In this document: piece by piece, positions 17,201-47,244 of the stretch
Layout: each line of letters begins with the position of its first letter
Numbering within the stretch: position 1 is the stretch's first letter
Assembly: GCA_017887095.1 (NCBI GenBank)
Contig: JAGHIT010000106.1
Coordinates: 1 to 50,789, forward strand
Length of the DNA stretch: 50,789 nucleotides
Reading direction: 5' to 3'
DNA from: Clostridia bacterium
Lineage (GTDB): Bacteria > Bacillota > Clostridia > Christensenellales > Borkfalkiaceae
The notes under the pieces: generated by a model
The model's input: only the letters and a program-made list of their open reading frames with translations
Told to the model about the DNA's origin: nothing
The model's database searches: none
Translations under genes and position numbers: made by a program

Positions 17201-20200
17201 TACTCGCGCTGCACCTCGGCGGCTCTTCCGTCAGAGACGGAAACGCCAAGCATGCCGTTCAAGGATATGCCGCCGACGGAAAGACCGCTTGCATGGAGCA
17301 CGACGCCCTTTTGCGCGAGGCAGACATCAAGTATCGCATTGCCATAAGCTACGGTCGCAATGCTGCCCTCCCGATCGGAGGCACCGCCCAATACAAGGTT
17401 GTTTAGTAAAGAGGGCAGATCGAGCGATGCAAACAGGTCAGTGACCGCAGCGCCGGCGCCGAGCTGTAAACCGATCTCCTTGACTTCCGCGGGCAGAATC
17501 GTCCCCTCTGCCGCAGAACGGTTGACAATTTCTGCGATGCGCGCGTACACATCTGCGAAAGCAACCTTAAGATCGTCCAGTTCGCTGTATGCGAGTTCCA
17601 CCGCAAGCGCACCGAATACGATGCGGATACGATCGGCGGTTGCATCCACGCTGACCGATACGACCGTTTCTCCTGCCGTCACCGTGAGATCGGCACACAG
17701 GGCGATACCTTCTTCCCAGGACAGCCACCCGTTCTCGACCGCAACGTTGAGCGAAATATCGCCGTAGACGACGTCAAGGGAACCGTTCAGCGCGACCTCC
17801 TGTTCTTTAAGGATGGTCACTACCGTATCGAACAGGGGCGTGATGTCCACGTAGTTCAGATAGTATTCGTCATGAATGACAAACGGTACTGTAGGGGAAA
17901 CGGAAACGCTCATCCCCAGCGCCTCCAGGCGAACGCCCCTCGGGAACAGACTGAACTGTACGTCGCCGAGCGCAAGTTCGACGCCAAAGAGAGACAGAAG
18001 CGTTGAACCATCCACGCAGATACCGTCTTCCGTGACGGTAAACAGAGATGAAAGATCAAGCGAAAGCAGCTTTGTAAGCAGCTCCTGCACATCGATATCC
18101 CCTTCCGACTGCGGCATATCGCCGAGCAGCTCACGAAGCAGTCCGGCAAGCTCGGACGCCGTCGCCCTGATCTTAATGCCGTCTATTGCACAGAAGATAT
18201 CGCCTTCGGGATCATAGGTAAAGGAAAGCCCCCTTACTCTGCTGCCCGTCCTGATATTCATGACGCACGAAACACTCTTGGACGCCTGATCGAAGGCAAT
18301 GGCTCCTGCAAGGGATATATCTCCCTGCGACGAGGCATAAGAAAACTCCAGCATCCATGCCTTTGCCAACGCAAGTTCCGCGATCGTCTCGATCCAGGGC
18401 ATGACATCCACATAGTCCGCATAATCCCCTGCCGAAACCGTGAACGCCTCTGTCGGAATAAACTCGATCTCCGCACTTAAAACCGAGACGGAGACGCCGT
18501 TCTCTGTGAGCGTCAGCTGTACGTCGCCGAGCGTAAAATCGACGCCGAACAGGGCAAGAAGTTCCGTGCCGTTCAGAGTAATACCATCCTCCGTAAGTCC
18601 AAAGACTTCGGAGACATCGATCGCAAACAATCGTTCCAGGATCTGCTGCAGATCCGCATCCATGGCGGGCGCTGCGGCATCTGAGGAGAATAAACCGTTC
18701 ACCAGAGCGGCGATTTCCGCTGCGGAGGCTTTCACTTTGATGCCGTCCACCGCAAGATATACCGTGTGAACGCCGTCCGACTGCGCAGACGCAAATGTGA
18801 GCCGTTTTGTAATGCCGCCCCATGCGAGGTCAACTTCGCCTCTGACGGAAAGTGTCGTCACATCGAAATCGAGCGAAGCGGCGAGTGAAAATGCCTCGGT
18901 CTCATACGCTGCGTCCGCATGCAGCGCCTCCGCCCGGGCAAGCGAGGCAATTGCCTCCAGCCAGGGGCCGGCATCCACATAATCCGCATAGTCCCCTGCC
19001 GAGACCGTGAATGCTTCGGCAGGCGCAAGCGAAACATCTGCACCTGAAACGGAAACGGAGATGCCGTCCGCCGTTTCGCCGATCGTTACGTCGCCGAGGT
19101 CGAAGGAAATTCCGAGCGCCGCAAGCAGCTTTCCCGCCGCGACCGTGATCCCGTCCTCCGAAGTGGAAACCATGGACGCAAGATCAAGCGAGAGAAGCAT
19201 ATCGATCAGAGACGCCGCATCGTTTGCTCCCACGGTTGAAATGCCCGCCGCGGAATACTGTTCTGCGAGCAGCTCAGACAAAACTGCCGCAACATCATTC
19301 ACTGCAACGCGCACCTTTACTCCGTCCAGTTCCAAATAGACAACGGGAGCGGCACTGTTAGTGCAATAGGCAAAGTTCAGCGTCTTGCTCATACCGTTAT
19401 ATACGATATCGAGACTGCCGCGCGCAGAGAGCGAGGCAAAATCCAGCGAGACGCCGCCGTGCAGCGCAAGCTCGCCCTGCGCCATAGGAAGCGTATAGGA
19501 AACACTGACGTCAACCGCTTCGCCCGTGACAATGTCCGCAAGTTTGAGAACCATACCTGTAAGGTCGGTATAGGATGCAGGATCACCCGCTTCGGGGACA
19601 GTCGCCTGTGAATAGGACAGCTCTGCACCGACCCGCATGCCCGCAAGCGTCAGCTGCGTCGTGACACCGCCCAGAGAGACAGTCTTGCCGTCCTCCGCTA
19701 TGTCAAAAGAAAAAACAACCGGAAGTTCGATACCGGAGATCGTGAGAACGGAGGAAAGCGTTGCGCTTCTGCCGTCCTCCGCAACCGTAAACGTACCGCT
19801 GCCAAGCTGCTCCAGGAGCGCATCGGTATCCGTCACGCTGCCGTCTCCCGTCATTGCCGTAAACAATGCCGCAAACTGCTCGGGATCGAGCGAACCGCGG
19901 AAGTTGTCGCCGATGCGAAGATATACGTCCTCGTCCGCATAGGCAACATAAAGCGCTCCGATCTGCGCGCGCAACTGCAAGTTGCTGAAGTCAGCCGCAT
20001 CGACATAGACAAGCCCTTCGACCGCTCTTCCGTCGAGCGACAGTCCGAGGCGGAAGGTCACAGGTCCCTGTAACACGGGAGCAAACGCAGCGGAAAGGCA
20101 TCCCGCCGCCGTCACCGCAGCATTCTCTTCCGCGCCCGTCGCAGGCTTGGAAGCATACTCTGAATAATAATCGTCGTAAACGTTTGTCACCGCTTTTTGC

Positions 20201-29866: not shown

Positions 29867-31948
29867 TTATTCGGAAACAGGCTCCAGGATAGCGGTAACC
29901 GTAAGATCATTCACCGCGTCACAAGCTACGGTGATCGTATCCCCCGGCTTAAATTCTGTTTCTACATAGTATCCGTTATAATCTTCCGCAGGTTTTGCTG
30001 ACAGATTATATGTTACGCCGTTCACAACAACAGAAACGTTACAGCGCCACAGCAGCACGGTTCCGGAGAATACAAGGCGATAGGTACCTGCTTCAATATC
30101 GTTTCCGACCATCATCGTGACCGCCTCACCCAAACCGCGATTTCCTCCGGGAAGCGTGATCGAGATTTCTTCCGACGTTGTGACGGTGGGAACAGTCGTT
30201 TCTTCAACAGTAATATCTAGCTGCACTTGCTCGCTTGCACTGTGGAACACCAACATGCAATATTCATTCGACGCGGTAACCGTCTCGAAAGTAGCCGAAA
30301 GCTGATCGGAAGTGATCAGGAAATCCTTTGCCGAACCATCGGGGCTGATCAACGTAACGGTGAATGCTACGTCGGTCGATGATCCTACCGTCAGTTTATA
30401 CCAGCCGGCAGCGCCCATGATCATGCTGCCCGTGGTAATTTTCGGACGATTGGTCTCTTCATCCAACTCATCGATGGAAGTTGTCGGTACAGAAATAGAA
30501 AGTGTCGCAGAAGAAGCGTTTCTAAACTGGAAGTTTGACCTTCCCTGGATCATCGTCTGACCGGTTCCCTGCACTCTGAAGCCCTCAAGCTCCACATCGG
30601 GATCCGCATATGTATAGAGACCGTCGCGATAATATCCTCTGCTGGAAAAACGGTAGCTTACAGTATAATCATAAGTGCCGTTTTCCACATTGGCTTCCGT
30701 GAGAGCGGGCAGTGTAATGGTTTGCATCGTCTTTTCGCAAACGGGGCACTTCAGTTCCGCCGAGCCTGCGGCCGATGCGGTCGGTGCCTGTGTCACCTCC
30801 GCGGTATATGGCTCGGTATGAGCCTTTACGGGTATGGTGACTTCCGTCACTTCCGTCTTGCCCTCCGCGTCGGAGAACGTCTTGCCGCACGCCGAGCAGG
30901 TGTAATATTCGATATTCCCCGCTTCCGCGCAGGTCGCTTCCTTGGCTTCCGTCTTGGTCAGCTTATGACCCGCGGGAATGCCGACTTCCGTCACTTCCGT
31001 CTTGCCCTCCGCGTCGGAGAGCGTCTTGCCGCACGCCGAGCAGGTGTAGTACTCGATATTGCCCGCTTCCGCGCAGGTCGCGTCCACCGCTTCCGTCTTA
31101 GTCATCTTGTGCCCTGCGGCGGGGATGCCGACCTCCGTCACTTCCGTCTTGCCCTCCGCGTCGGAGAACGTCTTGCCGCACGCCGAGCAGGTATAATATT
31201 CGATATTGCCCGCTTCCGTGCAGGTCGCTTCCTTCGCTTCTGTCTTGGTCAGCTTGTGACCTGCGGCGGGGATGCCGACCTCCGTCACTTCCGTCTTACC
31301 CTCCGCGTCGGAGAACATCTTGCCGCACGCCGAGCAGGTATAATATTCGATATTTCCCGCTTCCGTGCAGGTCGCGTCCACCGCTTCCGTCTTGGTCATC
31401 TTGTGCCCTGCGGCGGGGATGCCGACCTCCGTCACTTCCGTCTTACCCTCCGCGTCGGAGAACATTTTATCGCAGACAGAGCAGGTATAATATTCGATAT
31501 TTCCTGCTTCCGTACAGGTCGCCGCCTTCGCCGCCGTCCTGGTCAGCGCGTGTCCTGCCGCAGATACGGAAACATTCGCCACTTCCGCTTTTCCTTCCGC
31601 GTCGGAGAACGTCTTGCCGCACGCCGAGCAGGTATAGTACTCGATGTTCCCTGCTTCCGTACAAGTTGCAGCCTTCCCCTCCGTCTTTGTCAGGGTATGC
31701 CCCACGGCGTCGGTCACTGCCGACTCATATGTGATCTCATGGTTCCCCTCTTCATCGGAAAATGTCTTGCCGCACCCGGAACAGACATAATAGGCAATAT
31801 GCCCGTCTTCCGTACAGGTCGCTTCCACAGCTTCCACAAAGTTCATTGTGTGCTTGTGCTCTTCCGCAGGCTCCGAACAGGCAACCAAAGCCGCCGTCAT
31901 AATTCCAGCCAACTAAACGGTACAGCAAATCGTTATCAGCCGTTTCAT
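29867..31948 (-). pseudogene. Cys-rich tandem-repeat lipoprotein gene interrupted by an amber codon in its signal peptide
   Basis: With AGGAGGG in front, translation should begin at ATG 31946-31948 (MKRLITICCTV). TAG at 31913-31915 then interrupts the signal peptide, and the frame resumes with LAGIMTAALVACSEP, a proper lipobox (LVAC). Restarting at TTG 31910-31912 would lack the basic n-region. Downstream the frame is open for about 680 residues: seven 49-residue repeats with ATCTEAGNIEYYTCSACGKTFSD and a lead His, one degenerate unit, then two beta-sandwich-like domains of about 290 residues. TAG is a normal stop elsewhere in this window. Either the gene is broken by a single base change, or the base is an assembly error. 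Confidence 0.75.
30826..31860. repeat. 147-bp tandem repeats (49 residues each) in the lipoprotein gene
   Basis: Six near-identical units lie between about 30826 and 31705 and a seventh, diverged one is next to the lipobox. Units alternate in two versions (HKLTKTEAKEATC and HKMTKTEAVDATC), a pattern suggesting duplication of a two-unit block. One unit has lost an Ala codon before its Gly. Confidence 0.92.
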
Positions 31949-35007: not shown

Positions 35008-35529
35008 ATGTTAGACAATACTGTCAGGCAGCTTCTCAACGAACAGGTCACAAAAGAATTTTATTCCGCTTATCTCTACCTCGACTTTGCAAATTATTAT
35101 GCAGATGCGGGGCTGGACGGATTTGCGCACTGGTACGAAATTCAAGCGCAGGAAGAGCGTGATCACGCAATGATGATACGCCGCTATCTCCTCGACAACG
35201 GAGAACGCGTTTTGTTTGCGGCAATCGAAAAGCCGGACAAACTGTATGAAAACGATGCCGCACCCGTCAAAGCGGGACTTGCGCATGAACAGCTTGTAAC
35301 GGCATCCATCAACGCCATCTATGCGGCTGCATTTTCCGCAAAGGATTTTAAAACCATGCAATTCCTGGACTGGTTCGTAAAAGAACAGGGCGAGGAAGAA
35401 AAAAATGCCGAGGATCTGGTCAAAAAGATGCAACTCTTTGGCGGCGATCCGAAGAGCTTATACCTGCTCAACAGCGAACTTGCGGCGCGCGTCTATACGG
35501 CACCGTCCACAAACGCGCCCGCCATGTAA
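35008..35529 (+). CDS. ftnA: Non-heme ferritin
   Basis: A 173-residue four-helix-bundle protein that assembles into 24-mers and stores iron as ferric mineral. Ferroxidase ligands are visible: Glu17 in VTKEFYSAYLYLD, the EERDH motif (Glu50, His53) and Glu94/Glu127 equivalents in HEQLVTASINAIY and VKEQGEEEKNAED. The start at 35008 has CAGGAGG at ideal spacing. It is monocistronic, ending at a terminator shared with the phage-type cluster. Confidence 0.94.
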   Translation: MLDNTVRQLLNEQVTKEFYSAYLYLDFANYYADAGLDGFAHWYEIQAQEERDHAMMIRRYLLDNGERVLFAAIEKPDKLYENDAAPVKAGLAHEQLVTASINAIYAAAFSAKDFKTMQFLDWFVKEQGEEEKNAEDLVKKMQLFGGDPKSLYLLNSELAARVYTAPSTNAPAM

Positions 35530-35553
35530 ATGGCGTATTCACCCCATTCAAAA

Positions 35554-35586
35554 ACAGGTCCCGCAACGGCGGGACCTGTCCTTTTT
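35554..35586. terminator. Bidirectional terminator between ferritin and the head-gene cluster
   Basis: ACAGGTCCCGC, loop AACG, GCGGGACCTGT. CCTTTTT follows on the plus strand and TTTTTG on the minus strand. It marks the 3' end of the phage-type operon. Confidence 0.92.
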
Positions 35587-36077
35587 CAGCAGTACGACGC
35601 GAGAAGATCGTACAGCGTTGCGTAATATTCTCCCAGATACGTCCGTGCAAGAGAGTCTACCGTGTACGCCTGCAGACGGGCATCGGGATCGTCCGTCACA
35701 CTCATATAATATTCGCGTACAACGAGGAATCGTTGCGAAGGAGTAAGGTTGTAGTTGGGATTTTCGGGATACCGGTACGGGCCCTGTTCATTTCCTTCCG
35801 ACCCGAGCGACTCGTAGGCGAGTTGATAATCGAGATCCTCTTTCAGCGCTTCGATCGCCTTGTACTGTGCCGTATTGATGCGGGCATTCGCCATGACCTG
35901 TACATAAGAACGCGCAAAGTTATTGGCAACGAGCTGGCGTTGAATGGACGCCTTCTCCTCATCTGCTTCGGCAACGATCTCGTTCTTTTTGACCTGCGCC
36001 GCACGCACCATTGCCATCTGCACGGCATTGAGATCGGCATATTTCTCGTCAGTCAGATCAACAATATCGATGGTCAT
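35586..36077 (-). CDS. Phage-cluster helical protein, unknown
   Basis: A 163-residue, mainly helical, soluble protein: residues 10-85 are rich in Ala, Glu, Lys and Gln with heptad-like spacing, followed by a region with GPYRYPENPNYNLTPSQRFLVVREYY. It is the last gene of the head cluster, and its ATG overlaps the stop of the nozzle-like gene (ATGA). In P22 the corresponding position encodes the tail needle or an ejection component. Position suggests a similar accessory particle role, but there is no recognisable homology. Confidence 0.7.
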   Translation of the reverse strand: MTIDIVDLTDEKYADLNAVQMAMVRAAQVKKNEIVAEADEEKASIQRQLVANNFARSYVQVMANARINTAQYKAIEALKEDLDYQLAYESLGSEGNEQGPYRYPENPNYNLTPSQRFLVVREYYMSVTDDPDARLQAYTVDSLARTYLGEYYATLYDLLASYC

Positions 36078-37354
36078 ATCCTGTCCTCCCTTCTGACACG
36101 CAGACCGATCCCGTCAATACATGCCGCAGTCTGACTGAAACTTACCGTCAGAGAGATATTTTCCCCGCGCACCGCAGTCGGAAAGCGCGTCCACTCCCCA
36201 GCCTTTGCCGAAGCGGAAGAAGAAAGTCCGTCCTCTCCCGCCGCCGATACCGTGAACGAACCACTGCCGGAAATATACACTGCTTCCAGTCGCTTTTCCC
36301 CTTCTCCGAGATCGGACAGAGCCATTTCCGCAACAAGTTTGCAGCCGCCCGCCGAAGGAAGCGCCTTCCCCGTTAAGCGGTACACCGACCCTCCGTGCAT
36401 GGTATATATGTATGGTCCGAACGCACATCGGTCAAAAGTACGGCGGATAAATCTGCCGCGTTCCTGAACGGGATCGTATACATAGACGGCTTTGACACCG
36501 TCCGTCATTGTCACCGACGCCGCTGCCTGCATATGATCCAAGGTTCCCATGCGCAGATCTGCGGAAAGAGAAATCTCCTCGTCGGACGCGCCGGCTGCCT
36601 GCTCGGCTTTTGTTCCGTCAAAGCGGCAAAGCCCCCTGCTCGTGAAAAAGTACGCAGTCTCGCCGATGACTGCCGCCCGCGACAGGATCTCTCCCATCCC
36701 GAAGGGCATCGCTTCCTGCTGAAAGTTGTAGATATCGCAGTATCCTGTCAGACGTGTGATACCGTATCGGCGCAGGAAATACACTCTGTCGCGCATGGAG
36801 ATGATGTCCACCACCTCTCCCGCACCGGGAAGGAGGTCGAAATAGCCCGCATCGTGCTCGCCGTAATTTTCCCAGCCCCGGAAATCCAGAGGTTTGGTAT
36901 AGTATACACGCGTACCGACTGCGCCGAACAGCCGCTCATGATGGAGCGCCAGTGCCGAAGTGGACGGCGTGGGCGAAAAGGTCACAATGCTGTTTGCCGT
37001 ATTGGCAAAATAGTGAAAATATGTATCACCGATCGCAAAATAGCGCGTGGTTCCTTCAGCTTCGACAAGTGCGGTAAGATTATGCATGCTGCCGCCGGAC
37101 GGATAGGAGACGTTCGTATCCAGAAATTTGCCCGTCTGCGTACTCTTCACATATGCAAATACACGATCTCCGGCACAAAAGATATCCGTGGCGGACGACG
37201 GAAGCGTATATGCCTTGATTTCCCCCTCCGCGCACACGAAAGAACCGTTCTCCTCCCGCAGATGTTCCAGCCGGAAACGACGGAATCTGCCTTCCCGCCT
37301 GAGCGCCGAAACGGGATAATGCAAAGTATACGTCCTGCACGAAGGCACCGTCAT
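36074..37354 (-). CDS. Beta-propeller tail-hub/nozzle-like protein
   Basis: 426 residues made largely of short beta repeats (RVFAYVKSTQTGKFLD, RYFAIGDTYFHYFA, RVYYTKPLDFRGW, RVYFLRRYGITRLTG, TAYFFTSRGLCRFDG, AVYVYDPVQERGRF), each like a propeller blade, then a beta-sandwich-like tail. In position and size it corresponds to the podovirus hub/nozzle (P22 gp10, T7 gp12). The start at 37354 is chosen because it has GGAGG upstream and overlaps the adaptor stop as ATGA; a longer frame from 37435 would overlap 85 bases. The functional assignment is inferred from architecture and gene order. Confidence 0.72.
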   Translation of the reverse strand: MTVPSCRTYTLHYPVSALRREGRFRRFRLEHLREENGSFVCAEGEIKAYTLPSSATDIFCAGDRVFAYVKSTQTGKFLDTNVSYPSGGSMHNLTALVEAEGTTRYFAIGDTYFHYFANTANSIVTFSPTPSTSALALHHERLFGAVGTRVYYTKPLDFRGWENYGEHDAGYFDLLPGAGEVVDIISMRDRVYFLRRYGITRLTGYCDIYNFQQEAMPFGMGEILSRAAVIGETAYFFTSRGLCRFDGTKAEQAAGASDEEISLSADLRMGTLDHMQAAASVTMTDGVKAVYVYDPVQERGRFIRRTFDRCAFGPYIYTMHGGSVYRLTGKALPSAGGCKLVAEMALSDLGEGEKRLEAVYISGSGSFTVSAAGEDGLSSSASAKAGEWTRFPTAVRGENISLTVSFSQTAACIDGIGLRVRREDRI

Positions 37355-37926
37355 ACCCACCTCCGCGCCCGAACACACAGTTTTCTGCGTGAAAGCCCCG
37401 CCGCCCGCAAAGCTTCGGTATACTTCGTATCCCATACAGCCGCCTCTGCATACCGACCCGCCGAGAGCAGATATTCTCTGACAACGCCGAATGCAAGCAA
37501 TCGTGCGGACACCTTATCGGAGAACGCCGTTTCTCCGTCGATGGTCGGTTCTTCGGGCGCATATGTATATTTGACGACCACGCTCCCCGTCGGCTCCTTG
37601 AGCCGCAGCCTTGCGGGAAAAACTTCGAACTCCGTATTCCGGCCGGAAGGATCGCACACTTCGATCACATCCACGGGCGGATAAGAGAAATCGGTAAATG
37701 CAAGATAGCCTTCGGACGGCGTCATCCGTTCCTCTGCCTTCAGCGGAAGATGATCGAGCGCGACTTCGTTCTCCACGAGACGGTAGCAGCGCAGCAAAAC
37801 GGCGGTCTCGCCCGCAGGAACAGTGCCTGAACTGACAGCTGCGCTGTACGCCGAACGGATCGAAGCGGACAGATCGGTCCTTCCGAGGCTTTCCGCCGCA
37901 AGAATTAGCACATCCCTGATGAGCAT
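37351..37926 (-). CDS. Portal adaptor / head-completion-like protein
   Basis: 191 residues with an N-terminal helical part (MLIRDVLILAAESLGRTDL, LLRCYRLVENEVALDHLPL) and a beta-rich middle. It lies directly after the coat gene and before the nozzle-like gene, the place of P22 gp4 or T7 gp11, which are of similar size. The start at 37926 has GGGGGAG upstream. The role is inferred. Confidence 0.65.
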   Translation of the reverse strand: MLIRDVLILAAESLGRTDLSASIRSAYSAAVSSGTVPAGETAVLLRCYRLVENEVALDHLPLKAEERMTPSEGYLAFTDFSYPPVDVIEVCDPSGRNTEFEVFPARLRLKEPTGSVVVKYTYAPEEPTIDGETAFSDKVSARLLAFGVVREYLLSAGRYAEAAVWDTKYTEALRAAGLSRRKLCVRARRWV

Positions 37927-37939
37927 GCCGCGCTCCCCC

Positions 37940-39094
37940 TTACTTCTCCGTGATGCCTGTCAGCATCGCCTGTCCGCACGGGCGATAGCACATGAGCTCC
38001 GCATACTTGACAAGCGTCGCCTGATAGACGGGTTTTCCCGGGATCTGATTGAGGACTCTGCCGTTTTCTCCTTCCAGCCACTGCCAGTCGCACAGCTGGT
38101 GCAGACGAAAATCGTCGGTATTCAGAAGGTACATCGTCCCGTCCGGACAGAATCTGTCAGCCACGACAGGAATGCCGTTGAACGTGATCGCACGGGAACC
38201 GCCGACCAGATCGATGCTGTCACACTGTCGGTATTTGCTGAGAACATTATACAGAGCGCGCCGCACGCCCCACGAACAGACGATAAAATTGATCTTGCCG
38301 CCCGAATTTTCCTCCACCTGATCGATCGCCGTCTGCACGGCAAGTTCGGTCAGCGAACCCACGCTCTCGACGATGACAGGATTCAGCCAGCCGTTCTCCG
38401 ATCGGTCAAGCCCGTACAGCGTATCGGAATCAGAGAAGATCGCACCCAGCCCCGTGATCTCGAGATTGCGCGAGTTCTGCACATACAGCCCGCAATTGAC
38501 CGCCGTGGACACACTCTCCCCGGATAGCGTGATCGCCTTTGTGTTGCGATCGATCGTGAGGACGGTCCTGCTCTCCGCAGCCGTCGACCCGGCATCCGAA
38601 ATGATATCCACGATCATGCCGACCATAAGATTTTTCGTACTGTCAACGGTGTATTTCGTCCCGGAGACAGTCGATATCTTGGCGAGCTTGCCGGACCCGT
38701 CGCCAAAGAGCATTCTTCCGAGATTAAAGGAAGAGCTTCGTACCAGTCCGTTCATCTCTTCGTTGAGCAGATCGACGAACGCCCCCTCATCGTTTCGCGA
38801 AGCGCGCACCGCCTTGTCGCTGATCTCTATTTTTCCGTAGAGGTTCTTCAGCGTTGCGGTAAACTGGGCATAACAATTGCCCGTGCCGCTGGGAAGATCG
38901 CCATCCTCCGTGCCTGCGCCGATCCCGCTGTGCAGTCCGTAAACGACCGTCTTTTTGATATCCTTGCCCCAAACATCCGAACTGGTCTGTTCGACGGCTG
39001 CGAGAAAGGGATTGACATTCTTGTTAAGCTGTTCTGCGACCGCATCGAGATAATACGAGCGGAGCGCGCTGTCTGCCGAAGTGGTTGTAACCAT
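37940..39094 (-). CDS. Major capsid (coat) protein, HK97-fold
   Basis: 384 residues. The layout fits a phage coat protein without a protease-removed delta domain: N-arm (TSADSALRSYYLDAVAEQLNKNVNPFLAAVEQTS), E-loop-like strand (YGLHSGIGAGTEDGDLPSGTGN), then IEISDKAVRASRNDEGAFVDLLNEEMNGLVRSSSFNLGRMLFGDGSG as spine helix region, and a P-domain ending in GRVLNQIPGKPVYQATLVKYAELMCYRP (these are pointers, not motifs). The scaffold and portal genes lie upstream in the usual order. The start at 39094 has AAGGAG. Confidence 0.85.
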   Translation of the reverse strand: MVTTTSADSALRSYYLDAVAEQLNKNVNPFLAAVEQTSSDVWGKDIKKTVVYGLHSGIGAGTEDGDLPSGTGNCYAQFTATLKNLYGKIEISDKAVRASRNDEGAFVDLLNEEMNGLVRSSSFNLGRMLFGDGSGKLAKISTVSGTKYTVDSTKNLMVGMIVDIISDAGSTAAESRTVLTIDRNTKAITLSGESVSTAVNCGLYVQNSRNLEITGLGAIFSDSDTLYGLDRSENGWLNPVIVESVGSLTELAVQTAIDQVEENSGGKINFIVCSWGVRRALYNVLSKYRQCDSIDLVGGSRAITFNGIPVVADRFCPDGTMYLLNTDDFRLHQLCDWQWLEGENGRVLNQIPGKPVYQATLVKYAELMCYRPCGQAMLTGITEK

Positions 39095-39112
39095 AATGAG
39101 TCTCCTTATCGT

Positions 39113-39511
39113 TTATTTTTGTAATTTAAAAAAACCGAGCGCCATATTTCCTGCTTCTTTGAAGGACTGCGCTCTCTTTACGGGCGCCGTGACGCCCGCA
39201 CCCCCGCCCCCGAGGAGGGGCACGCCCTTGCAGGAGGCAAGATATTCGCCTACAATGCGCGCGCGCACCTCTTCGTCCCCCTTGACGGCGCGATACAGCT
39301 CCTCATGAGCATCCGCAGCCGCGCGCGACGGCTTCTCCGCCTCCGATTGAGCAGCGGCAGCCTCCAGCGCCCGCAAGCGTTGACTGCGACGGGTAAATTC
39401 CGCCTCGAGCTCCTTATACGCGCGCATGAGGGCGTCTACGTTCTGAAATTTTCCGAGATCGACCTTGGTCGTGTCCTCGGGTTCCTGCGTTGTGTTCTCC
39501 TCTTCCGTCAT
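39113..39511 (-). CDS. Capsid scaffolding-like protein
   Basis: 132 residues, acidic N-terminus (MTEEENTTQEPEDTTK), a central helix with strong coiled-coil character (VDALMRAYKELEAEF, then RRSQRLRALEAAAAQSEAEK) and a Gly-rich loop. Size, charge, helicity and the place between portal and coat genes are those of phage scaffolding proteins; sequence identity to any one family is not claimed. The ATG overlaps the portal stop (ATGA). Confidence 0.72.
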   Translation of the reverse strand: MTEEENTTQEPEDTTKVDLGKFQNVDALMRAYKELEAEFTRRSQRLRALEAAAAQSEAEKPSRAAADAHEELYRAVKGDEEVRARIVGEYLASCKGVPLLGGGGAGVTAPVKRAQSFKEAGNMALGFFKLQK

Positions 39512-41358
39512 TTTTCTCCTCCCATTTTTTGATGAGACGCAAGGTGCCTGAGAATATGTTCCCTTCGCACCGCGTCCTCCTCCCCGCCCGAAAGCAGGGC
39601 GCGGACGTGTTCGGTCATATGCAGCGAATGATCGTCGTATACATCCGCGTCAACGTCCGTCTCGGCCAGCAGGATATTTTCCCGTTCCGCTTTTCTGATA
39701 TGCAGATGGGAAATATCCCGCGCATTGTCGAACGACCCGTATCCCAGCGCCTCCAGAACGCGGTTTCGCGTGTCATCCGAAAAATTACCGTTCTCATCCT
39801 TCAGAAGCCCGAGCGACAGAAGGTACAAAATATCCTCCTTCCTCTGCTCGGCGGTACGTTCGTATCCGGATACAAACTGTACGTCGTCGGCAGAAATGTC
39901 GCTTCTGCTGAACTCGAACAACTCGGCGTACCCGCCCGTCCCCGTCATACGCATGATGCGCCGACTGCCGGCAAACTGCTTATAAAGATGCAGGATCTGT
40001 TTTCCCGTCTCTCTGACAGCCCGCTCCATGCTCTCCACGCTCATGTGCATGCGGTTGACGTCCTGATCGATGAGCAGCTGCAGCCCCGTTGCGCTGGTGA
40101 CATGCGTCGGGTTTGCGGAATTGCGGGAAATCTCGCTCATACCGGATACGAGAATGAACTCCGACGACAGCCGCTCCTCTTCTTTTTCGAACTCCGAGGG
40201 CAACGTCCCGCTTTCAAGAAAGCCCGGCTTCTCCGACCCTCTGCGGTAAACAAGCACCTTCCCGGGATACAGCCCGTCCTCCGCAAGATCTTCGGCATCC
40301 ACCGAACCGTCCTCGACCGCGATAACGCCCATCGACAGCCGGTTAAGAAATTCATGCTTGCGGTTTCTGACCGCATTGTACGCCCGCTGGAGCGGGATCA
40401 TCCGATCGACAACGCTGGTTCCGAAGAACGCCCCCGCCAAGGCGATACACGTCTGCCGCACAAATGGCAGAACGCGTTCGCCGCGGTCTCCGTTGCAATA
40501 GGGAAGATCCCCTTCGTACAAAAGTTTGTCAGCCGCAACGATCTCCAACCGTCCGTTCGGAAATTCTCCGTTCGGACGGGTATACCGCTCCATTAAAATG
40601 ACCGCATCCTCAAGCGCAGGCTGCACTGCGCCGTCAACGGGACGCCTCCACCCGCTCGCCGCCGAAAAGGGAACAAAAGGAAAATCAGTGATTTTCTCCC
40701 CTTCAATCTCAACGCCGAAACGTTCTTTGATCTGAGAAACGGGCACCGCTTTTGCATGAATGAGGCTGCCGATCTCCTCCATCCCCTCGGCTGTGAGGGA
40801 GTCGGGATATACCTCAAACGGCGAGAGCGCCACAACATTGACGTCTCCTTCGCGCACCGAATGTCCAAGATCATCCGTACCGATGACCTTGCCGTCCTCA
40901 TAATTCCACACGATCTTATAAAACGCCGTGCCGCAAGTTTCCGACCAAAGCGTCGCACGATCAATGATTCCGTCAAGATCGATCCTGTTTTTGACAGCCT
41001 TCAGAATGTTGGAACATAGCCGCGCAGTCTTCATGTCGTCGTCCGAATCGGAAAACGCCCGTACTTCAAGACTGGGACGCACTTTGGCAAGACGCGCAAT
41101 TCGGGTATCGATCGTTGGCGCAATATGGTTAAAACTGCGGCGCGACTGCCAGTAATATGCCGCAGTCTCCTCTTCCAGTTCCCCTGCCTCGCTGATATCG
41201 CAGTACTGATTTCCGCTGACAAAATTCATATTGAGCTGCCAGCCGCGCTCGAGACTGCGCCGCGCCTCCCTGCGCGCCGCAAAATCATCTCTGACGTTTC
41301 TCACGATTGCCTCAACGCGCTTTTGTTCCGCTGTTTTCTCAGTAATAGGTTCGCTCAT
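39508..41358 (-). CDS. Phage portal protein (P22-like)
   Basis: 616 residues. The dodecameric portal forms the DNA channel at one capsid vertex. Visible portal features are an N-terminal helix with YCDISEAGELEEE, RRSFNHIAPTIDTRIARLAKVRPSLEVR, the wing region with VVALSPFEVYPDS, and a long stem/clip region with FFGTSVVDRMIPLQRAYNAVRNRKHEFLNRL and SATGLQLLIDQDVNR. The length fits podovirus-type portals rather than shorter siphovirus ones. It starts by ATGA overlap with the 87-residue gene and ends by ATGA with the scaffold gene. Confidence 0.9.
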   Translation of the reverse strand: MSEPITEKTAEQKRVEAIVRNVRDDFAARREARRSLERGWQLNMNFVSGNQYCDISEAGELEEETAAYYWQSRRSFNHIAPTIDTRIARLAKVRPSLEVRAFSDSDDDMKTARLCSNILKAVKNRIDLDGIIDRATLWSETCGTAFYKIVWNYEDGKVIGTDDLGHSVREGDVNVVALSPFEVYPDSLTAEGMEEIGSLIHAKAVPVSQIKERFGVEIEGEKITDFPFVPFSAASGWRRPVDGAVQPALEDAVILMERYTRPNGEFPNGRLEIVAADKLLYEGDLPYCNGDRGERVLPFVRQTCIALAGAFFGTSVVDRMIPLQRAYNAVRNRKHEFLNRLSMGVIAVEDGSVDAEDLAEDGLYPGKVLVYRRGSEKPGFLESGTLPSEFEKEEERLSSEFILVSGMSEISRNSANPTHVTSATGLQLLIDQDVNRMHMSVESMERAVRETGKQILHLYKQFAGSRRIMRMTGTGGYAELFEFSRSDISADDVQFVSGYERTAEQRKEDILYLLSLGLLKDENGNFSDDTRNRVLEALGYGSFDNARDISHLHIRKAERENILLAETDVDADVYDDHSLHMTEHVRALLSGGEEDAVRREHILRHLASHQKMGGEK

Positions 41359-41618
41359 ACATTCTCCTTTTCGCTCTCAAGTTGCCTGAGCAGTCTTTGC
41401 CGCTCCGTTTCCAACTGTTCATCCGTATAGGAAGCATAGTCCGTTCCCTCCAACAAAAGGCGTACTGCCTTCAGATCGGGCGGAATATCCTTATGCGTCT
41501 CCCTTCGCTTGACAAGACGCATCTCCCCATCCTCCATGCCGTACTCTTCCGTCACCTCTTCTACACGAAACCCGAGCGCGACTTTCAGCACCGCATCCCT
41601 GACTTTATCATCCTGCAT
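41355..41618 (-). CDS. Small phage protein between terminase and portal
   Basis: 87 residues: DKVRDAVLKVALGFRVEEVTEEYG, then MRLVKRRETHKDIPPDLKAVRLLLEG. The end of the sequence resembles the C-terminal part of small terminase subunits (a basic strand followed by PPDLKAV), but no DNA-binding helix-turn-helix is left, so it could be a truncated TerS or a separate phage gene. The start has AAAGGAGGG upstream. It overlaps the portal start. Confidence 0.7.
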   Translation of the reverse strand: MQDDKVRDAVLKVALGFRVEEVTEEYGMEDGEMRLVKRRETHKDIPPDLKAVRLLLEGTDYASYTDEQLETERQRLLRQLESEKENV

Positions 41619-41648
41619 GCAATTTTTTGCCCTCCTTTTGTTTGTTTT

Positions 41649-41677
41649 CGTTGTATTATGTCTGACATAATACTATG
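41649..41677. repeat. Palindromic element, copy 1 (between terminase and the 87-residue gene)
   Basis: GTATTATGTC, T, GACATAATAC: perfect 10-bp arms around one base, extended to 29 bp. A related element is at 49766-49802; the 29-bp cores match at 23 positions, including an identical ACATAATACTATG. Confidence 0.8.
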
Positions 41678-41684
41678 CTCTTTG

Positions 41685-43121
41685 CTAAAATTTGCGATTT
41701 ACTCCCCTCCGCAGTGCACGAATCCGGCGTTCTTTATCTCTGGCGATCGGGCCCTTTTCATCCTCCGACCGACAGGGCTGCGGGCGATCCATAACAAAAT
41801 ACCGCAGTTCGTCCATTGCATGATCATCCCTTTTGACCGGACTGTCTCCGCTCCCCCAAAAATAACTTTTGAATTCGCGAATCATGTTGACGCAATTTGA
41901 AAAAATATACAGATCGGGCAAACCGTTACCGCGCCCGAGATAACCCTTTACGCGCTCGATCCCCGAAAAGACGTCCTTATCTACATGCGGATCGACCATG
42001 ATCCCGCGCTCGCTGAACAATTCCGCAACCGATTTGGACGCCGCCAGCGTGCGCTGCCCCGCCGCCGAATCGATCAACGCTTCCACCCTTCCCCTCGCAT
42101 CCCGTTTCCAACCTATTTTTTCGCTCATCGCAAGAATAGCGCGCACATGAAAATCGATGTCCTTTCCGGCAGCATAATGTTCGGCAACAACATATATATT
42201 TCCATCCCAGTCAACGGCGTACCAATGCGCCGAAAGAGGATTTTTCAGCCCGGGGTCGATGCTGATCTTCATTTGCCATTCGACCGGAACGGAAAAAGGT
42301 TCAATCACATGTATCCTCTCATCAAACTCCGGATAGACAAGCCCTTCCCGTGCGGCAAATCTTCCGTAGCGGCGAGATTGCAGCGTTGCCTCGTCCATGG
42401 ATGCAGAGAGCATCGCGATCTCCTTTCGGGAAAGATAGGGATTATCTGCCCACTCCATAAATTCGTACCAGATTTCCGGATTGTTCCCACGGTTCAGATA
42501 GATCTCCTCGTATACGAACGTCAGTCCCTTCAGCGGAGTCATTGTCCCGAAAATATCCCCTTTCCGGTCGATCACACGCATGAGACATTCCTCATATATG
42601 TCGCGCGGAGGCTCCTCGTCAAACCAAACAAAATCCAAAGAACTGCCTTGAAAACGCTCTCGGCCCTGGTCGCAGCTCTTGAATCCGATCACGCTCGTTC
42701 CGCCAAAGACGTTCTTCACTACGATCTGATCGACAATGCCCGCCGCGGGATTGTCCTTTCTGCCGCTGACCATAACGATGTCCGCGATCTGATCGGGGCG
42801 CAGATAGTAGAGCACCTTTTTCTGCGCGACGTCCCGCTGCACCTGCATGGTCGGCGACACTACCCAGCCAAACACATTTTTCCTGTTCTTACGGTATGGA
42901 TGACACCCTCGTGCGATCCATACCGCCTCAACTGCACCGCACTCCGTTTTCCCCGAACGGTTTCCCCCGAACACCCAGCGGTTTCGCTTCCCGCACTTAT
43001 GGAAAGCAAGCTGTTTTTTATGTTTTTTCCTGCCCGTATTATACTGCGCAAGATGGTCAGCCGCACGGCGCCGCGCCAGCTCAGCTTCTACCGCGCGAAG
43101 TTTTATCGATAATTCGCTCAT
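41685..43121 (-). CDS. Phage terminase large subunit
   Basis: 478 residues, the ATPase-nuclease motor that cuts and packages phage DNA. Walker A is FGGNRSGKT (51-59), Walker B FVWFDEE (164-170) with the catalytic Glu, and a coupling-type motif follows. The C-terminal RNase-H-like nuclease keeps its acidic residues: Asp289 in ISIDPGLKN, Asp351 in ALIDSAAG, and the DDHAMDELRY segment near 432-437. Both activities therefore look intact. The start is set at ATG 43121; TTG nine bases upstream (43130) has GGGGAG at better spacing and is an alternative. Confidence 0.95.
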   Translation of the reverse strand: MSELSIKLRAVEAELARRRAADHLAQYNTGRKKHKKQLAFHKCGKRNRWVFGGNRSGKTECGAVEAVWIARGCHPYRKNRKNVFGWVVSPTMQVQRDVAQKKVLYYLRPDQIADIVMVSGRKDNPAAGIVDQIVVKNVFGGTSVIGFKSCDQGRERFQGSSLDFVWFDEEPPRDIYEECLMRVIDRKGDIFGTMTPLKGLTFVYEEIYLNRGNNPEIWYEFMEWADNPYLSRKEIAMLSASMDEATLQSRRYGRFAAREGLVYPEFDERIHVIEPFSVPVEWQMKISIDPGLKNPLSAHWYAVDWDGNIYVVAEHYAAGKDIDFHVRAILAMSEKIGWKRDARGRVEALIDSAAGQRTLAASKSVAELFSERGIMVDPHVDKDVFSGIERVKGYLGRGNGLPDLYIFSNCVNMIREFKSYFWGSGDSPVKRDDHAMDELRYFVMDRPQPCRSEDEKGPIARDKERRIRALRRGVNRKF

Positions 43122-43174
43122 ATTCGTCAAAACCGCTCCCCGCCCGCCCGCACAAATGCGATACGATAGCTGAT

Positions 43175-43858
43175 ATGAAACGTCTGATCCTCCTTTTACC
43201 GCTTCTTGCGGCACTCTTATTTCCTGCTCCGCCGCTGACTGCTTCTGCCGTCGACGGCCGGTATGCGGTATGCGAACAGGATGTCTGGTTCTACGCAGGC
43301 GCGAGTGAAGAGGAGCGTCTATTCCTCATCCCCGATACTTACTATGTGCGCGTCCTTGAGGAAGGCGAGGTATATTCCACCGTAGAATACCTTACGGATG
43401 ATCCTCCATATAAAAAACTCCTCGGCTACTGTCGCACGGCAGACCTGCTATTTGTGGAATTTATTCCGGTACGGCCATATCTGCGCAAACAGATCACCGT
43501 AACCTATACTCTGCCGGAATCGGGCGATCTGGGCGACGATGCGCTTACGTCCGTTGAGCGTACTTTTGTTTATTACGGCGACCGCTATGAGAGCGGTCAA
43601 CTTTACCTCTATGTGTTGTGGGAGGGCACGTTTGGTTATATTCCTGCCGACACACCTCCGGAATACGAACACAACACGGACTACCTCACCGCGACGGGCG
43701 GCGAAGGCGAGACACTGGAGCCATCGCAGGAAAACGGCGGGATCAACGCAACGCAGATCATTGTCATCTGTCTCGCCTGCGGTGCGACGGTCGCAATCGC
43801 GATCATTCTCATGAAGGGAAAACGCCGGCAACCAAACAACGAACCGCAGGATTTCTGA
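43175..43858 (+). CDS. Secreted protein with SH3-like region and C-terminal membrane anchor
   Basis: 227 residues, not recognised. The signal peptide is MKRLILLLPLLAALLFPAPPLTASA, followed by an exposed domain with SH3-like strands (YAVCEQDVWFYAGAS, YYVRVLEEGEVYSTVEYL, KKLLGYCRTADLLF), a second beta region, then a membrane segment (INATQIIVICLACGATVAIAIIL) and a basic tail (KGKRRQPNNEPQDF). It lies on the plus strand among minus-strand phage genes and ends flush against the regulator stop (TGA/TCA adjoining at 43856-43861). No Shine-Dalgarno is present; a weak TACGAT box ends seven bases before the ATG. Its architecture resembles the 850-residue envelope protein at 44692. Confidence 0.85.
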   Translation: MKRLILLLPLLAALLFPAPPLTASAVDGRYAVCEQDVWFYAGASEEERLFLIPDTYYVRVLEEGEVYSTVEYLTDDPPYKKLLGYCRTADLLFVEFIPVRPYLRKQITVTYTLPESGDLGDDALTSVERTFVYYGDRYESGQLYLYVLWEGTFGYIPADTPPEYEHNTDYLTATGGEGETLEPSQENGGINATQIIVICLACGATVAIAIILMKGKRRQPNNEPQDF

Positions 43859-44371
43859 TCAGGGTGTCACGTTACGTTGTTTTCGGACGCGTTTTTGGGT
43901 AACCGCCCCCTCTCTTCCGGTTTTCAACGCTTCAAGCACGCGCACAAACGGCGAAAATCCGCCGAACGCCGCGTCATATTCCTGCTCCGACCACCCGTGA
44001 CGCGTCAGTCCGCAGACAAACTTTCTGAGAACGGCACACTGTCTGCGAAAATACGTTCTTTCGGAACAGTTCAGGCTATAATCCGCATATCGTTCCCGCA
44101 AAACGCGACCGCGGCGAAAATATTTATATTCAAGCAGATACAATTCGTCCTCGTTCAATGCCGCAAGCGTTTCCCCGACCGCGTACTCCAGCCGCATCAA
44201 CCTGGATTTGACCGCCAGCTCATCGGCAATTTTTTCCGCCGTCTTTAACGCGTCCTCCTGCGCACGAAAAGAAAGCATCGCCTTATTGACCGCTCCTACC
44301 CCAACAGCATCAATAAGCGCAGGAAGATACGGATAAGCATATAACACCACTTTCGCATACTCGTTTGCCAC
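43859..44371 (-). CDS. Phage-type transcriptional regulator (ArpU/sigma-like), putative
   Basis: A 170-residue soluble protein. The C-terminal half, LNEDELYLLEYKYFRRGRVLRERYADYSLNCSERTYFRRQCAVLRKF, resembles the sigma-70 region 4-like helix-turn-helix of late-gene activators (ArpU/RinA type) of Firmicutes phages, in which YKYF and SERTYFR are typical. It is the first gene of the head cluster, the usual place for a late regulator. The start is GTG 44369-44371, five bases after GGGGAGG; an ATG at 44413 is further upstream with no ribosome site. Confidence 0.72.
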   Translation of the reverse strand: MANEYAKVVLYAYPYLPALIDAVGVGAVNKAMLSFRAQEDALKTAEKIADELAVKSRLMRLEYAVGETLAALNEDELYLLEYKYFRRGRVLRERYADYSLNCSERTYFRRQCAVLRKFVCGLTRHGWSEQEYDAAFGGFSPFVRVLEALKTGREGAVTQKRVRKQRNVTP

Positions 44372-44427
44372 TTCTTCCTCCCCTCGTCCGATCACCCGAA
44401 CGAATGCGAACATTTGTTTGCCTTTTT

Positions 44428-44436
44428 ATATTAGCA
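44428..44436 (-). promoter_or_regulatory. Possible extended -10 promoter of the head-gene cluster
   Basis: TGCTAATAT fits an extended -10 element upstream of the regulator gene. No -35 hexamer is found at normal spacing, which would suit control by an activator. Bases 44437-44563 show no other feature. Confidence 0.35.
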
Positions 44437-44563
44437 TGTAAATATGACAGACGGCTGCCTGTATGCCAAAATTTCCCAAACTTTTTTTATTTTCCCGATA
44501 TGCACTTTGCCGCCGGTCTCCGAACGAGCCTTCCTGAAAAGAGACAGCGGCTCCAAAAAGCCG

Positions 44564-44602
44564 AACAGACCGACGAAATCAATTCCGTCGGTCTGTTTTT
44601 CA
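44564..44602 (+). terminator. Plus-strand terminator in the 44.4-44.7 kb gap
   Basis: AACAGACCGACG, 10-base loop, CGTCGGTCTGTT then TTTCATT. A plus-strand transcript must end here, but no plus-strand gene lies between 43858 and this point; the secreted-protein mRNA reading through the regulator gene is one source. Confidence 0.75.
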
Positions 44603-44656
44603 TTATATTCATGCGATGCAAATGTGTGAATTCTCTTGTTGTATGAAACAATCTTG

Positions 44657-44685
44657 TTGTTTTTTTTGCGCGCGCGTGTTATAAT
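44657..44685 (+). promoter_or_regulatory. Promoter of the 850-residue envelope-protein gene
   Basis: TTGTTT (44657-44662), 17 bases including a CGCGCGCG run, TATAAT (44680-44685). The ATG follows after six bases, so the message is predicted to be leaderless. Confidence 0.7.
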
Positions 44686-44691
44686 AGTTAT

Positions 44692-47244
44692 ATGTTATTA
44701 CGAAAGAGCGCCGCAGTTCTCGCCACTGTCCTTATCATTGGTCCGACATGCGCGGCAGTCCCCTCACAAGTCAATGCTTCCGCACAGCCGGCAACAGAAC
44801 AGGTCGCCCTTACCGCTGAGAACTCCTCTTTGTTTTTGCCTGCCAGCCATGAACAATATCTGGAATTGGAAGCCCCGTCGGATGCAGCTTTCACCGACGA
44901 TTATATCGCCATTGCAGACGGAAAAACGCTGTATCTGTATGCCCGCAGTGAAGGCGGATCCTATGTCGCCTATGAGGCGACGGGCGAAAATGCGACGATC
45001 ACAAAGATACAGTTTGTTGGTACAACCCTGTATTTTACCGTGCGCGGCACATACAATTCCTTCTGGCAATACGACTGCACAACGCATACCGCCGTACAGA
45101 TTCCCTCTCTCAACTGCTCTACATTCCTCATCGTGAATGACATGCTTTACACGGCGGTCATTTCCGGCAGTCAGACAACGCTTGCCTGCCGCAGCCTCAC
45201 CGATCTGCAGTCGGAAGGGACATACCTCGGAACGCTGACGACCGGAACGGAACCGTGGCTCGCCTACGCCGACGGCACGCTCTACTGTACGGTCAGCGAT
45301 CAGATCTACTATCCCGGCCCGGACGGCGTATATACGGATGAACTTAGCTACTACATTTCAAACGACACCACGATCAATCGTCATATCGCTTCTCTCTGTT
45401 CAGACGGCACATACCTCTACTTTTCCTCTGCGGCAGGACTGTTCCGCCGCAAGCCGGGCAGCGAAGCCGTACCCGTTCTTCTGTCAGATGCGTCAGAATT
45501 TTGCCGGGTCTCCGCATTGAGCTACTACAACGGTACATTCCACTGCATCCGAGATGCGTCCGTACGGGAAATCCGCATCACACAGGACATTGCAGAATAT
45601 ACCGATTATGAGATCGCAGCCGCCTCCGATTCCGTCAACCGACTGAACGATGCCGCAGACATCGCACGCGCGGGAAATCTCGTCGTAACAGCGGACGCAG
45701 GTAACGACAGGATCTCCGTTTACAACAGTGCAGACGACAGTTTTTCCACGCTTCCATGCGAAAATGAGCCGGAGTTGGTCGCCACGGACGGAGAAATTAT
45801 CGCCTACTCCGCAGGGACACAGGTCTACACATGTAATTTTGCGTCCGGTGAGACAACATTTTCTTCGGCACAGCTCACCGGAACCGAAGTCGTCGGCCTG
45901 AGCGTGCTGTACGGCAGCACATATTATGTCAAAGGAAACGGGACACGCGGCGTCGTCGGCGGCATTTCTGTAGAAACAAGCACATCCCCGAAAGGCATGG
46001 CCGCCGATCTGTACGGCAATCTGTACCTCTTCTATGCAAGCGGCGCCGTTCGTACCTACAGCGAGGAAGAATTTCTTTCTCAGGGCATGGGCGCCGATAC
46101 GGGCATACAGCTCCCCTCCGATGCAACCATGCTCCGCGCAGATCTGGACGGGAATCTCTACTGTCTCTCCGACGGCGCTCTCTTGCGCAACGGAACGATC
46201 TACGCCGTTATTGACGGTTCCGACTTTGTGTACGGAACGGATACGGCGCATCCGATCTCCTATGCGTTAGGATTCGAAGACGATCAAGTATATTTTATCT
46301 TCGGGAATTATGTCGTAACAACGCACGGGAGCACGGCAGATGCGGCAGGCGCACTCTCCGAGATCCCGACGCTCTCCGAAATTCCCGTCGGCGACGCAAC
46401 AGAGCGGATCTTCTCCCTTCACACCCAGGAAGGCATTCTCGTCGACATAGCGCAGCGCGCGGTCGGAATTTCGATCGATCTCGCCGCCCTGCGCGAAAAC
46501 AACGCAGCGACATTCCCATATTTGAGTTACGGCAGAAGCGAACAAGAGCGGCAGGGCATCCTGCTCGCCGACAGTCAGAGCAATCCTGACGGATACATCG
46601 CAGTCCTATTTTCCGCAGAAGACGGCAGCTGCACGGCGGAACTGTTCCGCGCCGAAGCCGTCATCCCTTCGGAAACGGCCGCATGGACTGAATCGGAACG
46701 GCAAACACGCTACTTGTCCTCCCAAATCTCCGCACGCTATGCGCCTTGCATGGACGCTTCGCTTGACCAAACGACTCTGCCTCGCGGGACACAGGTCTCT
46801 CTCCTCGGGACACTGGAAGCCCCCGACCGCACCTATGCGCTCATTGAATACAATACAGATTTGCGCGACGTGACGCGCGGATGGGTGCCCCTTTCCTATC
46901 TGACGACCGTCTCTCCTACTCCCAACACGGGAGAACGATATACGCTTTCCTACCTGAAGGCATCACCGGAAGGCGTTATCTTTACCGCGGAAGACGGCTC
47001 ACGGATCACGATCACCGAACGCACACAGGTTCAACTCTACGACAACGGAGACGGAACTTACACCGCCCGCCTTGCAGATCGGACCGAATACAGCGCAACC
47101 GTCACGGGCGACATGTTGGACAACGACAGCGCCGAAGCGATCCGCATCGCTCTGATCGTTATCCTCACCGTGTTGGCGCTGCTCATCATCGGCGTATACA
47201 TTTTCCTTCTGCCCCGTGAAAAATACCGAAAAAAAGGCAGATAA
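44692..47244 (+). CDS. Large beta-propeller-like envelope protein with C-terminal anchor
   Basis: 850 residues, not recognised. The signal peptide is MLLRKSAAVLATVLIIGPTCA. About 600 residues of repeated short strands follow (KTLYLYARSEGG, TTLYFTVRG, GTLYCTVSD, TYLYFSSAAG, GNLYLFYASGA, GNLYCLSDGA), a pattern of beta-propeller blades. An SH3-like segment lies near 660-720 (GTQVSLLGTLEAPDRTYALIEYN, RGWVPLSYL), then a membrane segment near 818-840 and a basic tail PREKYRKKGR. It should be displayed outside the membrane. The start has no Shine-Dalgarno but sits right at the expected transcription start. Function unknown. Confidence 0.85.
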   Translation: MLLRKSAAVLATVLIIGPTCAAVPSQVNASAQPATEQVALTAENSSLFLPASHEQYLELEAPSDAAFTDDYIAIADGKTLYLYARSEGGSYVAYEATGENATITKIQFVGTTLYFTVRGTYNSFWQYDCTTHTAVQIPSLNCSTFLIVNDMLYTAVISGSQTTLACRSLTDLQSEGTYLGTLTTGTEPWLAYADGTLYCTVSDQIYYPGPDGVYTDELSYYISNDTTINRHIASLCSDGTYLYFSSAAGLFRRKPGSEAVPVLLSDASEFCRVSALSYYNGTFHCIRDASVREIRITQDIAEYTDYEIAAASDSVNRLNDAADIARAGNLVVTADAGNDRISVYNSADDSFSTLPCENEPELVATDGEIIAYSAGTQVYTCNFASGETTFSSAQLTGTEVVGLSVLYGSTYYVKGNGTRGVVGGISVETSTSPKGMAADLYGNLYLFYASGAVRTYSEEEFLSQGMGADTGIQLPSDATMLRADLDGNLYCLSDGALLRNGTIYAVIDGSDFVYGTDTAHPISYALGFEDDQVYFIFGNYVVTTHGSTADAAGALSEIPTLSEIPVGDATERIFSLHTQEGILVDIAQRAVGISIDLAALRENNAATFPYLSYGRSEQERQGILLADSQSNPDGYIAVLFSAEDGSCTAELFRAEAVIPSETAAWTESERQTRYLSSQISARYAPCMDASLDQTTLPRGTQVSLLGTLEAPDRTYALIEYNTDLRDVTRGWVPLSYLTTVSPTPNTGERYTLSYLKASPEGVIFTAEDGSRITITERTQVQLYDNGDGTYTARLADRTEYSATVTGDMLDNDSAEAIRIALIVILTVLALLIIGVYIFLLPREKYRKKGR

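Follow-up and report, generated by a model that had tools for sequence, protein, structure and literature searches.

The window analysed here, a stretch of 50,789 nucleotides from a Clostridia bacterium of the family Borkfalkiaceae, order Christensenellales (GenBank assembly GCA_017887095.1, contig JAGHIT010000106.1), carries on its minus strand a compact cluster of podovirus-type head genes, which runs from position 44413 down to 35586 (all coordinates are window positions). The operon encodes, in this order, a large terminase (TerL, 41685..43121), a small terminase (TerS, 41355..41618), a P22-like portal (39508..41358), a scaffold-like protein (39113..39511), the major capsid or coat protein (37940..39094), a head-tail adaptor-like protein (37351..37926), a beta-propeller protein of 453 residues resembling a tail nozzle or muzzle (36074..37354) and a shortened helical protein of 163 residues, HEL (35586..36077). 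Ahead of it on the same strand lies the gene of a putative late transcription regulator, REG (43859..44413), and between REG and TerL an opposite-strand gene encodes a membrane protein, C11 (43163..43858, plus strand). All named reading frames are open at these coordinates and have no internal stops. An earlier note, made from the nucleotide letters of the window, had described such a head cluster, and the cluster proved real; its list of named genes also stands, except that the membrane-protein gene at 43163-43858 within the interval had not been listed. The overlaps by ATGA that it reported are found between TerS and portal, portal and scaffold, and nozzle and HEL, and also between adaptor and nozzle if the latter begins at 37354, which is the likely start of a frame open from 37435. 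We consider that this cluster is probably a domesticated podovirus working as a gene transfer agent (GTA).

TerL matches Terminase_6N (E 1.7e-12), and its nine ATPase and nuclease motif residues, to which we presume the usual roles in such enzymes, are intact in the window and invariant in all 57 aligned TerL sequences (57/57), which bears out the terminase with both sets of residues described in the earlier note. The portal matches P22_portal (E 7e-19), the coat protein matches PHROG 14242 (E 3e-59) and weakly SU10_MCP, and TerS matches PHROG 309 (E 2e-4). The scaffold and the adaptor, as single proteins, have no significant family match and are called by position; the profile built for each of them finds its counterpart in 41/41 loci of the family, and that of the adaptor also matches (E 2e-12) a protein of a second head type, described below, which Pfam calls SU10_adaptor. 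With the family profile of the propeller protein, hits were obtained to PQQ propellers (E 1e-5), to the SU10 surface protein 7z47_G (E 0.001) and to the crAss001 muzzle gp44 (E 0.04), and since these are propellers and podovirus surface or muzzle proteins, the predicted protein fits a short-tail nozzle. A 334-residue relative of HEL belongs to DUF7934 (PF25588, E 1.7e-121), a family whose members reach about 300 residues in most other families of the order as against 163 in the window; HEL was detected in 31/41 family loci with a first profile and in 61/61 loci with a wider one, which may also pick up coiled-coil matches. As a class-wide marker DUF7934 was rejected, as its 36/291 matches, two of them above the family's cut-off, are most probably coiled-coil noise. 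TerL and portal of the window share 84% and 80% identity, respectively, with their counterparts in Gallimonas faecavium; in the NCBI taxonomy Borkfalkia belongs to Christensenellales, and Gallimonas stands under Clostridia incertae sedis.

In the window's family, from which 151 genomes were drawn evenly, the coat gene gives a single match per genome in 142/151 genomes and in 18/18 genera, and hence the cluster is not strain-specific. In the 41 family loci that were read, namely the window and 40 others picked on long contigs, the seven core genes (TerL, TerS, portal, scaffold, coat, adaptor and nozzle) pass their length floors and keep one order in 41/41 cases. The nine coat-negative genomes cannot all be counted as true absences, given that four retain a portal gene (partial in three), one retains TerL and C11 at a contig edge and four show nothing. 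In one further genome (G098) the coat match is ended by the end of the contig. The earlier note had asked whether missing phage genes lie elsewhere as one split prophage. The window's genome contains one match each for Terminase_6N, coat and portal, so no second terminase of that type points to a split prophage; the rest of this genome was searched for Terminase_6N, Mu F, coat, portal and BhlA only.

The conserved neighbours of the cluster are REG and C11, each present in 38/41 family loci. REG, of 184 residues, is a weak call as an ArpU/sigma-like regulator (PHROG 36, E 0.003). C11, of 231 residues, has an N-terminal signal-like and a C-terminal hydrophobic segment and, by eye, an SH3-like outer part; its gene is convergent with REG and divergent from TerL, and 41 bases separate its start from that of TerL, which is probably at 43121. 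As an exclusive marker C11 was rejected, because orphan copies exist and many of its matches in 247/296 genomes of the order are weak. Farther upstream, W850 (44692..47244, plus strand), a large exported protein that has a hydrophobic segment at its C-terminus, accompanies the cluster in 35/41 family loci and in 0/20 loci of other families, and was therefore rejected as a core gene outside the window's family. A promoter-like site upstream of REG (44602..44630, minus strand) agrees with the consensus at 11/12 positions, a consensus match only, such sites being near shuffle level (7 vs 5.8, no enrichment). At the other end, a terminator-like hairpin with an 11-pair stem lies between HEL and a ferritin gene (35554..35579). 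The shared terminator of the earlier note corresponds to this hairpin; the scan assigns it to the plus strand, that of ferritin, and T residues follow the stem on the operon strand by eye. The same note had proposed ferritin as a sign of the same locus in relatives, and here the cluster does recur in fixed order, with ferritin beside it in 1/41 loci, the window alone, for which reason it was dropped as a locus marker.

The cluster also extends over much of the order. The coat profile matches 173/296 Christensenellales genomes in 63/125 genera, with two or more matches in at least 7 genomes, and 12 genomes of at most 372 in the rest of the class (391 genomes searched minus 19 listed order members). 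This recurrence in family and order, mostly in one copy and in a fixed order, agrees with the suggestion in the earlier note of a domesticated DNA-packaging particle. Among 20 chosen loci of other families, portal, scaffold, coat, adaptor and nozzle are found in 20/20, TerS in 19/20, TerL in 16/20 (the four without it being three split genomes and one contig end), C11 in 14/20 and REG in 13/20. These loci hold further genes as well: a zinc-ribbon-like protein (13/20), a 113-residue protein (16/20), a BhlA-like holin (11/20) and a second holin (7/20), of which one example each was tested against Pfam (PF10960, E 1e-13, and PF04531, E 1e-5, respectively), together with further tail genes and the longer DUF7934 protein. 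Since loci of other families keep holins, further tail genes and the longer DUF7934 protein, the loss of all other phage functions, from which the earlier note had argued, is better described as a later reduction in the window's family.

In three small genomes, G220 (0.9 Mb), G200 (0.8 Mb) and G401 (1.3 Mb), the two halves of the cluster, both of them read, stand apart, with REG-C11-TerL 38-45 kb from the coat gene or on a separate contig. In a fourth (G269, 0.9 Mb) the REG-C11-TerL half was read, with the coat gene about 40 kb distant. The retention of both halves in such small genomes argues for a joint function. Elsewhere a 2.5-kb gap separates TerL from TerS (G344), and G238 shows the unsplit form. 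One genome (G182) has two clusters, one of which carries a longer TerS upstream of TerL. Two variations of the coat gene were also observed: tandem coat genes, 44-49% identical, stand inside the cluster at L306:8035-10379 (G238) and at L193 and L198, and the coat protein of L247 (G225) bears a C-terminal extension with the look, by eye, of an InlB-type repeat, possibly a surface-displayed domain.

Descent of the cluster is largely congruent with that of the host lineage, that is, mostly vertical. Trees and distances were computed for 28 genomes, two of 30 having been dropped for a missing rpoB match. The concatenated tree of TerL, portal and coat has 15/25 splits in common with the rpoB tree, where 300 label shuffles gave 0.23 common splits on average and never more than 2, and single-gene trees have between 8 and 14 of 25 (coat 11, nozzle 9). 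Likewise, the distances of TerL, portal, scaffold and adaptor correlate with those of rpoB at a Mantel r of 0.70-0.73, values reached by 0/2000 permutations. The cluster is maintained by purifying selection, with dN/dS well below 1 as the earlier note had expected (medians 0.09-0.33). These medians come from 8-15 of 15 independent pairs per gene, after removal of pairs lacking the gene or with dS outside 0.02-1.5, and amount to 0.09 for TerL, 0.11 for coat, 0.12 for portal, 0.18 for TerS, 0.22 for HEL, 0.24 for both C11 and adaptor, 0.25 for REG, 0.30 for scaffold and 0.33 for nozzle, the highest value for the nozzle being 0.49.

The TerS of the window matches PHROG 309 over positions 194-243 of 319 only, and the matches in two other loci begin at 195 (L249) and 196 (L251); the latter has TerS upstream of TerL and still the core only. 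Longer matches are found in a phage contig (L200, 131-284) and in a prophage-like locus (L265, 126-252), both with TerS upstream of TerL. The extra part in L200 contains a weak helix-turn-helix (Pfam HTH_7, E 0.001, below cut-off), and in L265 the Pfam scan gives no helix-turn-helix. Fewer than 45 residues of room are left before the core in 148/167 loci with TerS after TerL, a set that includes IMG/VR contigs, some from the same species, and 38/40 TerS rows of an alignment (A4) begin at the core, this alignment having left out 20/60 TerS reading frames, mostly the longest. Comparison of the TerS profile with solved structures gave nothing meaningful. TerS is reduced to the part behind the DNA-binding domain. 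In RcGTA the TerS likewise lacks the N-terminal DNA-binding domain, a lack that its authors propose as the basis of random packaging (PMC6854486), and the report on FpGTA, from Faecalibacterium prausnitzii, describes a TerS with no obvious DNA-binding domain (PMC12946183). With such a TerS, host DNA would be packaged at random, by the headful mechanism, into a small head of podovirus type.

We may thus hypothesize a course of events in which REG would switch the late operon on, and portal, scaffold and coat would assemble a small head. TerL, aided by a TerS without its sequence-recognising part, would fill this head by the headful mechanism with more or less random chromosomal DNA. The adaptor and the beta-propeller nozzle would then close the head with a short tail, a few cells would lyse, particles would exit and relatives would receive DNA. 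Particle formation, random packaging, release and delivery are the steps that we infer. The content of the locus is consistent with this proposal, since only head, packaging, short-tail, regulator and membrane genes were recognised, with no integration or replication genes; no integrase is found among the cluster genes of the window, the search for one having been confined to them. Traits of a temperate phage or a satellite are also missing: the window contains no tRNA gene, no exact word of at least 10 bases is common to the flanks 44381-44760 and 35481-35700, which agrees with the absence of att sites foreseen in the earlier note, and the cluster is nearly universal in the family.

To our knowledge, only a few GTAs have been described so far, most of them in Alphaproteobacteria, which are also the hosts of RcGTA. 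Unlike the present cluster, RcGTA has the build of a siphovirus, its tail being long and its coat of the HK97 type. Both are vertically inherited head-packaging clusters of order-wide occurrence, in the case of RcGTA in Rhodobacterales (Rhodogtaviriformidae; PMC9662315, PMC6854486). The closest comparison is FpGTA, the first gut GTA, reported in 2026 in one genus, which was found in 12/12 Faecalibacterium genomes and not in Gemmiger or Subdoligranulum (PMC12946183). Like the cluster in the window, FpGTA is a compact, podovirus-like TerL, portal, scaffold and coat operon of gut Clostridia, and it is genus-wide; its TerS precedes TerL, and a second operon encodes baseplate, fibre, holin and endolysin. 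The window's cluster differs from it, in a comparison made by description, in having TerS after TerL and a divergent membrane gene between regulator and TerL, and in occurring over much of an order. P22/SU10-like podoviruses resemble it in portal, coat and nozzle-type proteins and in their order. The nearest phage coat genes, those of Cellulosimicrobium DS1, Microbacterium Shocker and Arthrobacter phages, are in contrast only 25-32% identical to that of the window (13 records) and belong to genomes of 42-47 kb, the Shocker record holding 66 annotated features, and the related IMG/VR contig L200 differs in its longer, upstream TerS. A full-text literature search found no title or abstract describing the cluster (preprints and most subscription papers lie outside its coverage), and the closest paper was PMC12946183. 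The best explanation of the cluster is a podovirus-type GTA that would form a new lineage beside FpGTA. If this is true, a podovirus-type cluster that is under selection, mostly present in one copy and spread over an order would make GTA-style exchange fundamental to a major group of gut Clostridia, most of them uncultured. The FpGTA report also mentions GTA-like packaging in Christensenellaceae, in 3/25 events and with no operon named (PMC12946183), and the cluster provides a gene set to compare with chromosomal DNA from Christensenellaceae in faecal virus-like particles.

Several observations weigh against a gene transfer agent. The BhlA holin, the only lysis family searched genome-wide, is absent from all genomes of the window's family (0/151), and no endolysin turned up, though no search was aimed at endolysins. 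The absence of BhlA indicates that the window holds a reduced form whose release must go by another route; as a matter of speculation, the membrane proteins C11 and W850 are candidates. Room for an extra TerS domain exists in 19/167 loci. Coat distances correlate poorly with those of rpoB (r 0.21 over the 28 genomes, a value reached by 186/2000 permutations; 0.11 within the family; 0.43 without one fast genus), as do nozzle distances over the order (r 0.17), those within the family giving 0.56. Of the ten splits of the concatenated tree that are not shared with rpoB, six have a support of at least 0.95, so that some exchange or a rate artefact is likely, and descent is not purely vertical or rates differ. 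Losses also occur: four of the 151 family genomes have no coat match, portal match or other trace, two (G007, G053) keep a coat remnant of about 40 residues only, and G173 may be a cluster remnant. C11 occurs in orphan copies without a cluster. G007 amounts to a natural knockout: the central part of its cluster, between a point inside TerL and one close to the end of the coat gene, has given way to an island of 8.4 kb (L304:2600-10950), which encodes a C5 DNA methylase (PF00145, E 1e-57) beside unidentified genes.

A domesticated particle could instead package DNA without delivering it and serve, as a PBSX-like killing or lysis particle, in competition among relatives. PBSX of Bacillus subtilis carries lysis genes of its own, and its tail is contractile. 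It nevertheless resembles the present case as a chromosomally fixed, phage-derived particle of a Gram-positive host, as stated in the FpGTA report, whose authors also leave a non-delivering particle open (PMC12946183). The nozzle is the most divergent core protein: within the family its mean distance is 0.81, where coat has 0.43 and rpoB 0.23. Such divergence would be expected of a component that encounters targets or immunity. The dN/dS of the nozzle, however, still lies below 1, and the cluster genes of the window include no recognised toxin or immunity gene, and we regard this explanation as unlikely, while it survives better than those that follow. A phage satellite or stripped prophage, still spreading and packaged by its own terminase, would account for a compact head-packaging cluster with sporadic absence and for the two clusters of G182, but it is improbable in view of one coat match in nearly every family genome, the same order over 18 genera and the congruence with rpoB, to which the lack of an att-like repeat at the tested ends, the truncated TerS and the retention of split loci may be added. 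Use of the capsid as a decoy, a defence against phages or a compartment has in its favour a cassette of another order, described below, with no recognised portal or terminase beside it. Such a use seems still less probable here, where intact catalytic residues in TerL and the conservation of portal and TerS indicate that DNA is packaged. The idea of a decaying prophage relic, passively carried, draws on the reduction in the window's family (BhlA absent, HEL shortened, the 113-residue protein and the second holin not seen at the window locus) and can hardly be upheld against seven open core frames in 41/41 loci, motif residues kept in 57/57 sequences and a dN/dS of about 0.1 for TerL and coat. 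The gene transfer agent is consequently favoured over satellite or decay.

A broader and more tentative proposal, which goes beyond the gene transfer agent itself and which we hold as possible with less than even confidence, is that an ancient podovirus-type GTA was ancestral to most Christensenellales. Two unrelated coat types might have been swapped along family lines while the short-tail proteins were kept, the cluster might have been split in genome-reduced lineages, and the window's family might have exchanged holin lysis for release via its own membrane proteins.

A second compact podovirus-type cluster was observed in G151, adjoining dnaB and rplI, with an unrelated coat (PF25209/PF13252) and with adaptor, nozzle and DUF7934-like proteins related to those of the window's cluster. 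Loci of this second head type (L378, L411-L423) belong to families f2, f4, f11, f15, f17, f22 and f23. Its coat is found in 42/296 genomes of the order, mostly in families without the first type, both types occurring in f18 and f33, and a match to the nozzle profile lies beside it in 12/13 genomes read. Two loci have an ordinary TerS (Terminase_2) upstream of TerL and three lie, by eye, near a repressor-like gene, so some loci of the second type may be prophages, and this head type is a lead, not a result. In another order, genus g192 contains a scaffold-coat-c9-adaptor-nozzle cassette, read in detail in two genomes (L343:6785-11514 and L345:6381-10955), which sits between leuA and class-V aminotransferase/hydroxyacid dehydrogenase (serC/serA-like) genes and is apparently another domesticated capsid set.

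Among IMG/VR loci found here (L152-L210), 50/72 have the chromosomal TerL-TerS order and are probably pieces of host DNA classified as viral, which suggests that chromosomal genes of this cluster are entered under viruses in viral databases. Apart from the cluster, the window encodes at 29867-31912 a surface-like protein in which a 147-base repeat recurs 5.8 times in tandem, the copies being 87% alike and each encoding a CSACG-type motif, and at 14224-21132 a single open reading frame of 2302 residues, by eye a giant exported protein.

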